A stretch of DNA of 42,808 bases from a virus. Location: positions 1 to 42,808 of IMG/VR virus record IMGVR_UViG_3300005608_000010. One strand, 5' to 3'. Shown in pieces: positions 12,439 through 29,169 of the stretch; within the stretch, counting starts at the first letter, position 1; each line of letters begins with the position of its first letter. The translations under genes were made by a program, and so were the position numbers. Below the pieces are notes generated by a model that was not told the origin of the DNA, did not search any database, and saw only the letters and a program-made list of their open reading frames with translations.

Positions 12439-12999
12439 ATGCAAGATTTAAAAAAGTTTCAAACAAGTTTAAGTGGTGGGTTGGCAAGAGCTAATTTAAT
12501 GGATGTTGTGATTCAACCACCCTTACTATCAAGTAAAGAAGATGTTTTTGGTTCAGAATTCCTAACTTTTAGGTGTGAGAATGCGGAAGTTCCTGGTAAA
12601 AATATCACAACTAATGAAAGAAAAGATTATGTTGTATCATCGAAACATCCGAATGGTTTAACTTTTACAGATCTTACTTTGACCTTTGTTTGTTCCTCAT
12701 CCATGAAAGAAAGAATATTTTTTGATAAATGGATGGAAAAAATTATAGGTACTGGTGAATTGAAAAGTGAATATTATGACAAATTCATTTCACCAAAAAT
12801 AGATGTTAATTTATATACAGCTGAATCGGTTGGTGAGGGTGCTATGAAGTCAGCAACTTTCACTTATCATAAAATATTTCCAATTGCTATTTCTGCACAA
12901 GATGTTAATTGGTCAAATGAAGATATTTTAAGACTAACTGTCGGGTTTTCATATGAATATTGGTCTGTACAATATTTTGGGAAAACTAAAAATAAATAA
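12439..12999 (+). CDS. Tail tube-fold protein (gp54/gp19-like)
   Basis: Protein of 186 residues. The tube-protein pattern is visible: an ARANLMDVVIQPP start, FRCENAEVPGKNI, a GLTFTDLTLTFVC strand pair, then FFDKWMEKIIG, INVNLYT-like strand and IFPIAISAQDVNWSNED before LRLTVGFSYEYW. This is the gp19 fold shared by tube, tube cap and initiator proteins. Being next to gp26 and away from a sheath gene, it is more likely the tube initiator gp54 (T4: 320 residues, so this one would be short) than the main tube protein, but I cannot separate the two. Confidence 0.65.
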   Translation: MQDLKKFQTSLSGGLARANLMDVVIQPPLLSSKEDVFGSEFLTFRCENAEVPGKNITTNERKDYVVSSKHPNGLTFTDLTLTFVCSSSMKERIFFDKWMEKIIGTGELKSEYYDKFISPKIDVNLYTAESVGEGAMKSATFTYHKIFPIAISAQDVNWSNEDILRLTVGFSYEYWSVQYFGKTKNK

Positions 13000-13014: not shown

Positions 13015-13734
13015 ATGAGTACAAAACTACCAATTCTAAATGCGCCAAGATTTAGTGACACATTACCTTCCAGTGGGGAAACTTTCACATATAGACCTTT
13101 TCTAGTTAAAGAAGAGAAATATATCCAATTGACTAAAAATTCAGAAGATATCAATGTTATTCAAGATTCTTTGAAGTCTTTGATTTCTTCGTGTACCAGT
13201 ATTAATGATGTTAATAAATTACCCCTCTTTGATATTGAGTATGTATTTTTAAGGTTGAGAGAAAAATCTGTTGGTGATGTTATAGAGTTGAAGATGAAAC
13301 ATGTTGAAGTTACAGATTGTGACCACGTTGAAACCGTTTTTATGGATTTGAAAAAAATTAGAGTTCAGAGAAGTGAGAATCATTCAAACACAATTCTTTT
13401 AGATCCTGAGAGAAATATTAGTATAAAAATGAGATATCCAAAATACGAAGATGTTTCTAAAATGTCGAATGAAGATGATTTCTCATCCATCTTGAATGTT
13501 TTGACAGAGTGTGCAGAAATGGTGACTCAAGGTGAAGATGCTTTCATGATGAAAGACTTCTCAACACAAGAGAAAAAAGATTTTTTCTTAAATTTTAGTT
13601 TAAAGCATATGGAAAGTGTCAAAGAGTTCTTTGATACTATGCCAAAAATATGTTATGATTTAGAATGGACTTGCTCTAAGTGTGGTAAAACCGAATCCCA
13701 CACCATAGAAGGAGTTCAGTCTTTTTTATCATAG
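13015..13734 (+). CDS. 26: Baseplate hub assembly protein gp26 (T4_baseplate family)
   Basis: Protein of 239 residues (T4 gp26: 208) with AGGAG before the ATG. The family pattern is LPILNAPRFSDTLPSSGETF, TYRPFLVKEEKY, a cysteine-containing SLISSCTSINDVNKLPLFD segment and FLRLREKSVGDVIELK. Residues near 105 (DCDH) and the C-terminal CSKCGK form a probable zinc site. In T4, gp26 helps build the hub around the tape measure. The final codons contain a U UUU UUA slippery heptamer (13722-13728), two codons before the stop, so part of the product is probably extended into the -1 frame. Confidence 0.85.
   Translation: MSTKLPILNAPRFSDTLPSSGETFTYRPFLVKEEKYIQLTKNSEDINVIQDSLKSLISSCTSINDVNKLPLFDIEYVFLRLREKSVGDVIELKMKHVEVTDCDHVETVFMDLKKIRVQRSENHSNTILLDPERNISIKMRYPKYEDVSKMSNEDDFSSILNVLTECAEMVTQGEDAFMMKDFSTQEKKDFFLNFSLKHMESVKEFFDTMPKICYDLEWTCSKCGKTESHTIEGVQSFLS
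13722..13728 (+). promoter_or_regulatory. Programmed -1 ribosomal frameshift site U UUU UUA
   Basis: The heptamer T TTT TTA is in the correct register: zero-frame codons are TTT (13723-25) and TTA (13726-28). The zero-frame stop TAG follows at 13732. The -1 frame is open from 13689 to 13910 but has no ATG, GTG or TTG before residue 33 of the extension. A weak stem TATCA-CACGA-TGATA lies at 13738-13752, nine bases downstream, and could act as stimulator. Confidence 0.75.
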
Positions 13735-13910
13735 GGCTATCACACGATGATATAGAAAACTATTATAGAACCAATAGTGTTTTAGTCTACAACAACAGGT
13801 TTACTTTAACTGAAATTGAAAATATGTTTCCATTTGAAAGAGAAATATACGTATCTCTTCTAATATCTCATATAGAAGAAGAGAATGCCAAAATGAAGAA
13901 TTATAAATAA
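13728..13910 (+). CDS. gp51-like -1 frame extension of gp26 (tail-assembly-chaperone type)
   Basis: About 60 codons in the -1 frame relative to gp26, encoding IIGLSHDDIENYYRTN and later FPFEREIYVSLLISHIEEEN. The short helical product with an E-R-x-x-Y-x-x-L-L-x-x-H pattern resembles the small proteins that follow gp26-type genes in T4-like phages and the extension (T) part of G-GT tail chaperones. It has no usable start codon at its 5' end, the first ATG being at 13824. The simplest reading is a 298-residue gp26 fusion made by -1 slippage at 13722-13728. The tape measure gene follows directly, as in G-GT systems. Confidence 0.7.
   Translation: MIGLSHDDIENYYRTNSVLVYNNRFTLTEIENMFPFEREIYVSLLISHIEEENAKMKNYK
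13902..13909 (+). promoter_or_regulatory. Late promoter box TATAAATA before the tape measure gene
   Basis: Exact late box covering the last codons of the gp51-like frame, eight bases before the ATG at 13918. The predicted transcript would have only about three leader bases. No ribosome site is seen between box and ATG. Confidence 0.55.
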
Positions 13911-13917
13911 GTTTACT

Positions 13918-16509
13918 ATGGATACTACTGAAAACAACTCCTTACCTAAAATGGAGGGTTCTGAATCTGAAAAAACCCTTAAAAATATACTAGATACTAA
14001 TGTTGAAGGTTTTTCTGAATATGTTTACGAACCTTTATTGAATATTGATAGTTCTATTAATACTCAACTTCACGAATTAGTTTATGAACCTCTATTTGAG
14101 ATTTATGAATGTTTGGTGAAAGGTTTCCAAGGAATATCAGAGAATAACTTCAAAAGTAGAATTGAAGAGGAAATTAGATTAAGAGAAAAAAAATCAGCAG
14201 AAGAAAAACTTAAAAAAGCAGAAGAATCTACCAAGAAAGAAAAAGATCCAAAGAAAACAGATAGAAGTGATATTAGTAAATTTCTAAAAACAGGGAATAT
14301 ATTTCAAGATACCCTAACAGGAATCACAAGAGGTATTAAAGATGATATTATGGATTTCACTGATATGGAAGTTGTTAGTGGAATTAAGTTGAATCAGATT
14401 ATCACACCACTTGAAAAACTAAAAGATTCCCTTGATGCTAGGTCAGAAGACCAGATTCTTAATGATAAGATTGTTGATAAATTGGATGAGATAAAAGGGT
14501 TTCAAGAAGCATTAGATCCAGATAAGGGAAAATCATTCACCGATGAGGAAAGAAAAATAGCAGAAAGTAATTTAGAGGTTGCAAAAAAGCAATTGGAATT
14601 ACTTGAAGGTCAAAAGAAATCTCAAACCAAATTACAAGAAGAGTCATTATTTAAAACTGATTCTGAAAAAGTTAAAGATGCTGTTGTATCAGAAGATGGT
14701 GAAATGAAAGGTTCTGAATTAAAAGATGATGCAGAATCTTTTAAATTACCCACATTTCAAGGAATAAAAGATAAATTTCAAGCTATAAGAATGGGAATTT
14801 CAGCAATCTCCACAACTCTTACCAGTTTATCAAGTGGATTTATATCTCTTTTAGGACCATTCGCTCCAATAATAGGAACAGTAGCAGCAATAGCATACAT
14901 AGGGTATGCATTATACAAATCAGTCACATCTATGTTTGATGTTTTTAAAGAGACTGGTTCAGTAATGGAAGCTTTAAAATCTTTAATTTCCACATTCTTT
15001 GGAACACTGATTGCCCTCCCATTTGATTTAATAAAAGGTGCTATTAGTTATATTGCTGATTTTTTAGGGTTTGAACGATTTTCCAAAATTTTAGATTCTT
15101 TCAGTTTTGTTGAAATTCTTACAAATATATTTCATAAAATTCTTGATTTTATTACATATCCATTTGAATTAGCTTTTGGTGGTATAATGAAGATATTTGA
15201 AGGTGACTTTAAAGGTGGATTGAAGGATATTTTTAAAGGTATACTGAGTAATGTGTTTGCACCATTCAGACTTCTTGTTAATTTGGTAGATTCTATATTT
15301 GGAACAGATATATCAGGAACCATTGCAGGTATATTTGATAAAATTTTTGATTTTATTACATATCCATTTGAATTAGCTTTTGGTGGTATAATGAAGATAT
15401 TTGAAGGCGACTTTTCTAATGGATTGAAGGATATTTTTAAGGGTATATTGAATTTTGTGTTTGCACCATTCAGACTTATTATTGATTTGGTAGATTCTAT
15501 ATTTGGAACAGATATATCAGGAACCATTGGAAGTATATTTGATAAAATTTTTGATTTTATTACATATCCATTTGAATTAGCTTTTGGTGGTATAATGAAG
15601 ATATTTGAAGGCGACTTTTCTGGTGGATTGAAAGATATTTTTAAGGGTATACTGAGTTATATGTATTCACCATTCAGACTTCTTGTTAATTTGATAGATT
15701 CTATATTTGGAACAGATATATCAGGGACCATTGGAAGTATATTTGATGGATTTTGGGATATGGTCACTTACCCCTTCAAAAAAATAGGTGAGGTTGTAAA
15801 AAGTATTTTTGAATTTAACTGGTCTAGTCTTTTACTTAAAATACCATTCTTGGGCCCTGTATTGGAAAAAATGGGGATTGGTGGAAAAGAAGAAGGTGGA
15901 TCAAAAGGTGGACCAAAACCTGAGAAAGATTCTGGGGAATTTGTTTCTGAACAAGATAGAAGACAAAAAAGACTCTCCATGACTAGAAGTTCTAGTATGA
16001 AAGATACTATTAAAAAAATGGACCTACTATCAGATTTGGCAAAAAATGATAAAACCCATTCTGGTTATGAGGGTGCAGAAAAGGATCGTGTTGAGTACGG
16101 TAGAAGTTTAATTGAAAATGCAGATGTTAAGGATATTGACAAATTTAATTTTTCTAAAAAATTTAACATTCCTGTTGATGAAAATTTAGAAAGAAAAGTC
16201 ACTGCAGATATAGCAGCAGTAAAATCACTCATCGGTGATATTCAAAAACCAGAGAAATCGGAAGTTATTACAAATGCTAGAAGATTTTTTCTTGATAATC
16301 AACATCTTTTACCAAAAAAGAATTTGGGTGCGAATCTGAATGAAAAAGAAGGTGCTTTAAGGGAGTCTAACATGGAAATGAATTCACCAAAACAATCTAA
16401 AGGTGATGTTGCAGTAATAAGTGATTCATCCACTAAATCAAATTCTCAAATTAATATAACAAAAGAAATAAAAACCCCATCTATTGGTAGAGGTAGATTT
16501 ACAAGATAA
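13918..16509 (+). CDS. Tail tape measure / length determinator (gp29 position)
   Basis: Protein of 863 residues. Residues 1-280 are charged and helical with coiled-coil character. About 290-345 is a hydrophobic Ala/Gly-rich segment (SLLGPFAPIIGTVAAIAYIG). Residues 404-607 hold three near-identical 68-residue repeats with FITYPFELAFGGIMKIFEGD and SIFGTDISGTI, plus a partial fourth. A polar C-terminal tail follows. This architecture, and the position right after the gp26/gp51-like chaperone pair, indicate the tape measure that fills the tail tube and sets its length; T4 gp29 has 590 residues. No sequence match to gp29 itself is claimed. The repeats amount to about 30 nm at 0.15 nm per residue. 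Confidence 0.75.
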   Translation: MDTTENNSLPKMEGSESEKTLKNILDTNVEGFSEYVYEPLLNIDSSINTQLHELVYEPLFEIYECLVKGFQGISENNFKSRIEEEIRLREKKSAEEKLKKAEESTKKEKDPKKTDRSDISKFLKTGNIFQDTLTGITRGIKDDIMDFTDMEVVSGIKLNQIITPLEKLKDSLDARSEDQILNDKIVDKLDEIKGFQEALDPDKGKSFTDEERKIAESNLEVAKKQLELLEGQKKSQTKLQEESLFKTDSEKVKDAVVSEDGEMKGSELKDDAESFKLPTFQGIKDKFQAIRMGISAISTTLTSLSSGFISLLGPFAPIIGTVAAIAYIGYALYKSVTSMFDVFKETGSVMEALKSLISTFFGTLIALPFDLIKGAISYIADFLGFERFSKILDSFSFVEILTNIFHKILDFITYPFELAFGGIMKIFEGDFKGGLKDIFKGILSNVFAPFRLLVNLVDSIFGTDISGTIAGIFDKIFDFITYPFELAFGGIMKIFEGDFSNGLKDIFKGILNFVFAPFRLIIDLVDSIFGTDISGTIGSIFDKIFDFITYPFELAFGGIMKIFEGDFSGGLKDIFKGILSYMYSPFRLLVNLIDSIFGTDISGTIGSIFDGFWDMVTYPFKKIGEVVKSIFEFNWSSLLLKIPFLGPVLEKMGIGGKEEGGSKGGPKPEKDSGEFVSEQDRRQKRLSMTRSSSMKDTIKKMDLLSDLAKNDKTHSGYEGAEKDRVEYGRSLIENADVKDIDKFNFSKKFNIPVDENLERKVTADIAAVKSLIGDIQKPEKSEVITNARRFFLDNQHLLPKKNLGANLNEKEGALRESNMEMNSPKQSKGDVAVISDSSTKSNSQINITKEIKTPSIGRGRFTR
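15127..15738 (+). repeat. Three tandem 204-bp coding repeats in the tape measure gene
   Basis: Copies lie at 15127-15330, 15331-15534 and 15535-15738, with a diverged partial copy from 15739. Each encodes 68 residues. The first 60 bases of each copy are nearly identical in DNA, so the duplication is recent or kept uniform by recombination. Confidence 0.9.
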
Positions 16510-19614: not shown

Positions 19615-20466
19615 ATGAAACAATATCCATATAAGACTTGTTTGAGATATCCAGGAGGTAAATCAAAGGCATTGAAAACTCTTGCTCCTTGGTTTCCATC
19701 TGGTATGAGTGAATATAGAGAACCTTTTATTGGTGGTGGTTCAGTTGCACTAATGGTTTCTCAAAATTTCCCTCACATGCCTGTCTGGGTAAATGATAAG
19801 TATGTGTATTTGTATAACTTCTGGACACAATTAAGAGATAATGGGAATGAACTTTCATATAAACTTTTAGATATTAAAAAGAGTGTTGAAGGTGATGATA
19901 TTGCACACAGGAAACTTTTTGATGAACACAAATTGAAAATATCTCAATCGGAAGGTGTCGATCAAGCAGTTTCTTTTTTCATTCTGAATAAATGTTCATA
20001 TTCTGGACTTACAGAAAACTCTACATTCTCAGTTCAAGCTTCGAAGAGTAATTTCTCTCAGGTTGGAATTAAAAAACTTCCAACATATTCTAGTATAATA
20101 CAGAACTGGAAAATAACAAATCTTGATTATTCCGAATTGTTAAAAGCACAAGGAGAGGATGTTTTTGTTTTTCTTGACCCCCCATATGACATTAAATCAT
20201 TTCTATATGGTACAGGTAGAAAAATGCATTCAGACTTTTGTCATATAAGATTTGCTAAAGATGTTGAAGAATGTAAACACAAATTTATGATAACTTATAA
20301 TGTTAATGACTGGTTAGTTGAAAGGTATAAGAACTTCCACCAAAAAGAATTTCTTTTACAGTATTCAATGGTTCACAGAAAAAATAATAAGAAGACTGAA
20401 CTTCTTATATCGAATTATGAGGTTGCTCCAAAAGCAAACTCTTTACAATCTTTTTTAGAAAAATGA
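19615..20466 (+). CDS. dam: DNA N6-adenine methyltransferase (D12 class, Dam-type)
   Basis: Protein of 283 residues with GAGGTG before the ATG. Motif X/I regions are RYPGGKSK (11-18) and EPFIGGGSVAL (36-46), and motif IV is DPPY at 188-191. This is the D12 class that includes Dam, whose members methylate adenine, many in GATC. As in T4, it precedes gp33-gp59-gp32 (T4 dam is elsewhere, so the order is not conserved exactly). GATC specificity is likely but not shown by sequence. It would protect phage DNA from GATC-specific nucleases and could modulate GATC-containing promoters at 30.8-42.4 kb. Confidence 0.9.
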   Translation: MKQYPYKTCLRYPGGKSKALKTLAPWFPSGMSEYREPFIGGGSVALMVSQNFPHMPVWVNDKYVYLYNFWTQLRDNGNELSYKLLDIKKSVEGDDIAHRKLFDEHKLKISQSEGVDQAVSFFILNKCSYSGLTENSTFSVQASKSNFSQVGIKKLPTYSSIIQNWKITNLDYSELLKAQGEDVFVFLDPPYDIKSFLYGTGRKMHSDFCHIRFAKDVEECKHKFMITYNVNDWLVERYKNFHQKEFLLQYSMVHRKNNKKTELLISNYEVAPKANSLQSFLEK

Positions 20467-29042: not shown

Positions 29043-29053
29043 TAAATGAGAAC

Positions 29054-29140
29054 GGAAGATTGTCCGAGTGGTTTATGGTGCTTGCTTGGAAAGCAAGTGT
29101 GGAGTAATATCCACCGTAGGTTCGAATCCTGCATCTTCCG
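29054..29140 (+). tRNA. tRNA-Ser (anticodon GGA)
   Basis: Acceptor GGAAGAT pairs with ATCTTCC (29133-29139), discriminator G at 29140. The anticodon arm is CTTGC-TTGGAAA-GCAAG with anticodon GGA, decoding UCC/UCU serine codons. A long variable arm with GTGGA/TCCAC stem marks it as a class II tRNA, and the T-arm has GTTCGAAT. CCA is not encoded. Flanking GAAC/GTTC would extend the acceptor helix by four pairs, followed by a T-rich tail. Confidence 0.95.
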
Positions 29141-29169
29141 TTCTTTTTTAAATTTTTTAAAAAAACCTC

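Follow-up and report, generated by a model that had tools for sequence, protein, structure and literature searches.

Making two forms of the tail-assembly chaperone (TAC) through a -1 slip is usual in long-tailed phages. The G and GT proteins of lambda are reportedly produced in this way, two chaperone forms arising when ribosomes slip into the -1 frame shortly upstream of the tape measure gene, and the locus described here is predicted to do the same. Lambda has a siphophage tail, and its slippery sequence differs from the one found in our locus. No lambda-type TAC family was detected in Pfam or PHROGs scans of gp26 or of the frame that overlaps its end. Two references on the lambda system, Levin 1993 and Xu 2004, are among those given in PMC12859696.

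The closest described systems are those of T4-like phages. T4 gp26 and gp51 are listed as hub assembly chaperones (PMC3004832), and T4-like gp26/gp51 are already treated as TACs in two papers (PMC10885494 and PMC12846349) that cite Vladimirov, Gautam and Davidson (2022, Virology 566:9), a study whose content we take through them. The PRFect paper (PMC10885494) cites it for T4-like phages that use one short and one long TAC gene with no frameshift, and PMC12846349 cites it on the point that T4-like phages have slippery poly-T sequences in their TAC-N genes. As relayed by these two papers, the frameshift mechanism is therefore already known: frameshifted gp26/gp51 has been reported for T4-like phages and the present locus adds a member, with the same gene families (PF12322/phrog_150 and phrog_634), short and long forms and a poly-T site. 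What we add here, relative to what those papers convey, is the breadth of conservation, a Shine-Dalgarno (SD)-like element, a positional structure signal and an explanation for gp51 genes that appeared truncated or missing. A -1 frameshift has also been proposed, from sequence only, for the TAC locus of Vandenendeviridae and Andersonviridae, which carries a conserved GTTTTT motif at the TAC-N end (PMC12846349); the location at the TAC-N end is common to both cases, whereas the motif and the phage families differ.

The whole stretch of viral DNA that we analysed (42,808 nt) is referred to here as the window. Its relevant features are as follows.

12439..12999, + strand, tail tube gene, upstream (phrog_45, E 2e-32; PF23849, 7e-9)
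13015..13734, + strand, gp26-type gene (T4_baseplate, PF12322), TAC-N short form, 239 aa, stop TAG at 13732-13734
13689..13910, + strand, -1 open frame, gp51-like C-terminal extension, 73 codons, stop TAA at 13908-13910 (phrog_634, E 8e-22)
13708..13714, + strand, GAAGGAG, SD-like element, 7 nt before the heptamer, may stimulate frameshifting
13722..13728, + strand, slippery heptamer T TTT TTA, 0 frame, in register, canonical X XXY YYZ
13734..13788, + strand, possible downstream stem (13734-13745 pairs with 13777-13788), 5-nt spacer
13918..16509, + strand, tape-measure-like gene, downstream (phrog_4200, tail length tape measure, E 5e-9), beginning 7 nt past the -1 frame stop

Gene 26 and the overlapping -1 frame

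The gp26-type gene matches PF12322 (E 1.4e-51) and phrog_150 (E 2e-55) and is the only copy of PF12322 in the window record. Because it ends in TCT TTT TTA TCA TAG, the heptamer T TTT TTA lies in the 0 frame, with a single sense codon (TCA) between it and the stop. The -1 frame contains no ATG, GTG or TTG before an ATG at 13824, approximately halfway through the conserved gp51 region. Its best-matching family is phrog_634 (E 8e-22), annotated as "baseplate hub assembly catalyst", and it further aligns with positions 231-276 of the 282 in phrog_150, near the C terminus of that profile (E 3e-8). A Pfam hit to GtrII was below threshold (17.8 bits, cut-off 30) and was rejected. After a slip, the part of this frame that is used would be 13728-13907, comprising 60 codons with three predicted helices (pLDDT 81), and reading through a tandem slip yields a computed gp26-gp51 fusion of 298 residues. 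An earlier reading of the DNA, made from the sequence alone, had proposed the identity of gp26, the exact register of the heptamer, the lack of a start codon at the beginning of the -1 frame, the gp51-like identity of that frame and a predicted fusion length of about 298 residues, all of which our analysis confirms.

Gene order (tail tube, gp26/51, tape measure) places the locus where TACs sit. The sequence-only reading was thus right about the tape measure gene that follows and about a G-GT type of arrangement in a T4-type setting; this arrangement is not, however, peculiar to the phage at hand, given its occurrence in the Kyanoviridae and Straboviridae described below and the published treatment of T4-like gp26/gp51 as TACs. 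In the translation of the tape-measure-like gene (13918-16509), we noticed a block ...FDFITYPFELAFGGIMKIFEGDF... in approximately three tandem copies; assignment of this protein to Jak1_Phl (Pfam) was discarded as a match below cut-off.

The heptamer is T-rich in an AT-rich genome, and T-rich heptamers are frequent in the window, where G+C is 32%. When ORFs of at least 120 codons were considered, TTTTTTN occurred in register at 28 sites in 43 window ORFs, yet at no site other than the one in gp26 does the -1 frame outrun the stop of the 0 frame by more than a single codon; there it does so by 58. A second in-register TTTTTTA (20451-20457), located 13 nt from the end of ORF 19615-20466, is probably nothing, since the -1 frame there gains only one codon. 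The only tRNA gene found in the window encodes tRNA-Ser (GGA), at 29053-29141.

We hold with high confidence that a programmed -1 frameshift at 13722-13728 would yield a major gp26 of 239 residues (TAC-N) and a minor gp26-gp51 of 298 residues (TAC-NC). Slippage itself very probably occurs, judging from the site, its register, the open frame, homology, conservation and selection, all of which are read from the sequence. At the slip, the tRNA in the P site (on UUU) and that in the A site (on UUA) would shift jointly onto UUU UUU. Base pairing between 16S rRNA and the GAAGGAG upstream would help, as might a weak downstream stem, and gene 26 would give mostly gp26 and, as a minority product, the gp26-gp51 fusion. 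By analogy with T4 genetics and lambda-type TACs, we infer that both forms work jointly as a tail-assembly chaperone, in which the tape measure protein, encoded immediately downstream, would be coated by gp26 domains and the minor form would use its helical gp51 tail to recruit tail-tube or hub subunits. In structural models, with gp26 and the extension built as two separate chains, gp26 reached a pLDDT of 88 (AlphaFold). Its fold had no significant Foldseek match in the PDB, the hit of highest probability being the HK97 TAC 2ob9 (probability 0.57, E 0.58, TM 0.25/0.47), and a PDB sequence search returned no match.

Conservation of the slippery site and frame overlap

We compared 234 distinct gp26 ends, obtained from four gp26-query scans of viral contigs, one Ackermannviridae-type scan and GenBank phages. 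T TTT TTN was present in register near the gp26 stop at 224 of them, mostly 10 nt before the stop, and the ten loci without TTTTTTN were T4 and nine of Ackermannviridae type. The last base of the heptamer was C at 154, T at 54 and A at 18 of the 226 sites counted, with A in the clade of the window and C or T in most others. In a subgroup of loci (L006, L046, L052, L055, L060, L066, L069 and L100) the heptamer start and the gp26 stop that follows it are 31 nt apart, and the short form there should therefore be about seven residues longer than usual.

Codon choice was analysed in 116 diverse representatives (<70% identity), which were picked after requiring the heptamer, a requirement that excludes only T4 and the Ackermannviridae-type loci. 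In these representatives the -1 frame is open for 55-73 codons past the heptamer. The codon before the heptamer Phe is always NNT, although eight different residues are encoded there (S, D, N, T, G, A, R or F). TTT serves as the first Phe codon in 116/116 cases, compared with 71% TTT elsewhere in the genes. If independence is assumed and phylogeny ignored, the joint chance of NNT and TTT among the representatives is ∼10^-48. The combination of heptamer and -1 frame is far beyond chance, and both protein parts are conserved across the frameshift-type relatives. Conservation of the heptamer and of the frame overlap, which had been suggested as a check, is thereby established. Relatives that have a normally started second gene and no slippery site, the kind of case named as counter-evidence, are limited to the T4/KARL-1 type, where this is a second full-length gene, and in part to Ackermannviridae.

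Heptamer and -1 frame were general in the Kyanoviridae examined. The same type occurs in Straboviridae outside the T4-type group (Aeh1, AS-szw, AsFcp_1, nt-1, S13, Ci1 and VmeM-32), in Vibrio phage D485, in Sinorhizobium phage phiN3 and in Rhizobium phage IC12. The Kyanoviridae cyanophages S-RIM8, P-SSM4, S-RSM4 and ACG-2014d/f share with the window the genes, their order, an in-register site (T TTT TTC) and the -1 gp51 frame, although their gp26 is only ∼30-36% identical to that of the window and their records show a separate gp26 with a truncated gp51, or leave gp51 unannotated. More generally, the annotated public records that we viewed (L012, L016, L025, L288, L293 and L295) either omit gp51 or give a short, internally started CDS (S-RIM8 and S-RSM4), and none of them joins the two frames. 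Cyanophage gp51 has been reported to be without its first ∼200 residues and gp51 to be missing only in Aeh1 (PMC3037559). In Aeromonas phage Aeh1 (L293), gp26 carries an in-register TTTTTTC and we found gp51 in its -1 frame; gp51 would thus have seemed truncated in cyanophages and missing in Aeh1 because it is the -1 frame of gene 26. Annotation could be corrected accordingly: in cyanophages and many T4-like phages, the short "gp51" would be merged with gp26 into one frameshifted gene.

Elements flanking the slippery site

Family-wide, pairing with the anti-SD sequence peaks in 8-nt stretches whose ends lie 6-9 nt upstream of the heptamer. The best anti-SD energy averages -6.6 kcal/mol, compared with -5.0 kcal/mol in synonymous shuffles (standard deviation of means, 0.11), and corresponds to an element of the GAGGG, AGGAG or GAAGG type at a fixed distance upstream of the heptamer. 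Downstream, RNA structure across the family is strongest when the 60-nt stretch begins 5 nt past the heptamer (mean z of -1.49 against dinucleotide shuffles and -1.57 against synonymous codon choice), while flanking 60-nt stretches give mean z values of -0.4 to +0.2 against shuffles. Both the SD-like element and the family downstream structure, at ribosomal spacing, are under nucleotide-level selection. The structural claim is a positional one only, since the helices differ between subgroups, and no single strongly covarying consensus helix was found among 115 ungapped loci. In the clade of the window, a six-sequence alignment supports a stem between 13734-13745 and 13777-13788 with 11 pairs and 92% of cells paired, showing no compensatory changes or covariation; the window's own sequence breaks two of the 11 pairs, and its downstream structure is weak (z of -0.5 to -1.3).

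The SD-like element could also serve a different purpose. A separate gp51-like gene might start inside or just after gp26, either coupled to gp26 translation or using a rare start codon (ATC at 13728 or ATA at 13731), aided by GAAGGAG, which lies 13-16 nt upstream of these two codons. Such a start would fit the ATG that overlaps the gp26 stop (TAATG) in nt-1, D485 and LIMEstone1, as well as the many GenBank records in which gp51 is a short separate CDS. However, no ATG, GTG or TTG is found near the beginning of the -1 frame in 51 of the 116 representatives, the window among the phages without one, and the heptamer, its register and the NNT and TTT codons are kept even in phages that do possess an ATG. 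Moreover, the distance between SD-like element and heptamer is constant while start codon positions vary, and T4 gp51 holds both parts in one chain. We therefore regard a separate start as improbable.

Still less probable is transcriptional slippage, in which a base lost or gained in the mRNA at the T run would join the two frames. Every frameshift-type relative does have a run of 6-8 T at the site. The run is mostly of six T, since TTTTTTC or TTTTTTA accounts for 172 of the 226 sites, and six T is short for slippage by RNA polymerase; a fixed codon register, together with selection on the SD-like element and downstream structure at ribosomal spacing, likewise speaks against it. A sequencing error or decayed gene, with the -1 frame as an assembly artefact or relic, would account for the frame break itself and nothing else, and is refuted by the relatives: over 220 distinct loci, some of them in finished GenBank genomes, show the identical break and conserve both parts.

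T4 gp51 and possible routes to the long form

T4 indeed has separate genes 26 and 51, as the sequence-only reading stated; the window appears to have one gene and a slip instead. The match of T4 gp51 (249 aa) to phrog_150 spans positions 13-280 and so includes both the gp26 domain and the extension; an end-to-end alignment was also obtained with a profile of the predicted fusions (46.6 bits). Because T4 gp51 combines a complete gp26-type domain with this same tail at its C terminus, its counterpart is the fusion and not the extension alone. The -1 frame was therefore correctly recognised as belonging to the gp51 family, but it is not equivalent to the whole of T4 gp51. T4 has two occurrences of PF12322, and 11 frameshift-type records have a single one each. 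Given this and the collinearity of gp51, T4 gp26 would be the equivalent of the short product, and T4 gp51 of the long product, of the single gene in the window. On these matches, T4 carries two gene copies where the predicted frameshifting phages carry one. In both T4 and KARL-1, gp26 lacks the heptamer and gp51 is a separate full-length gene. Phages with the frameshift and phages with the duplicated gene within one family would offer a clean comparative set for why the ratio of chaperone forms matters.

A further variant was observed at Ackermannviridae-type gp26 ends (L021, L270, L286, L287, L020 and L022), where a -1 frame of gp51-like length and with the gp51-like motif is open. No X XXY YYZ heptamer is present at these ends, which read GAR ATT TTC ATT TAA or contain CTT TTC, and neither Vi01 nor Klebsiella phage May has an ATG, GTG or TTG near the start of the -1 frame. 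We tentatively suggest that the T4 superfamily might have three routes by which these two parts yield the long chaperone. These would be a -1 frameshift, probably ancestral, with a selected SD-like element and downstream structure (the window, Kyanoviridae and Straboviridae of the Aeh1/nt-1/S13 type); gene duplication with in-frame fusion (T4 and KARL-1); and, in Ackermannviridae, an open -1 frame with no canonical heptamer and often no start codon. If this is true, translation of the Ackermannviridae -1 frame would call for a recoding signal of a kind not yet recognised.
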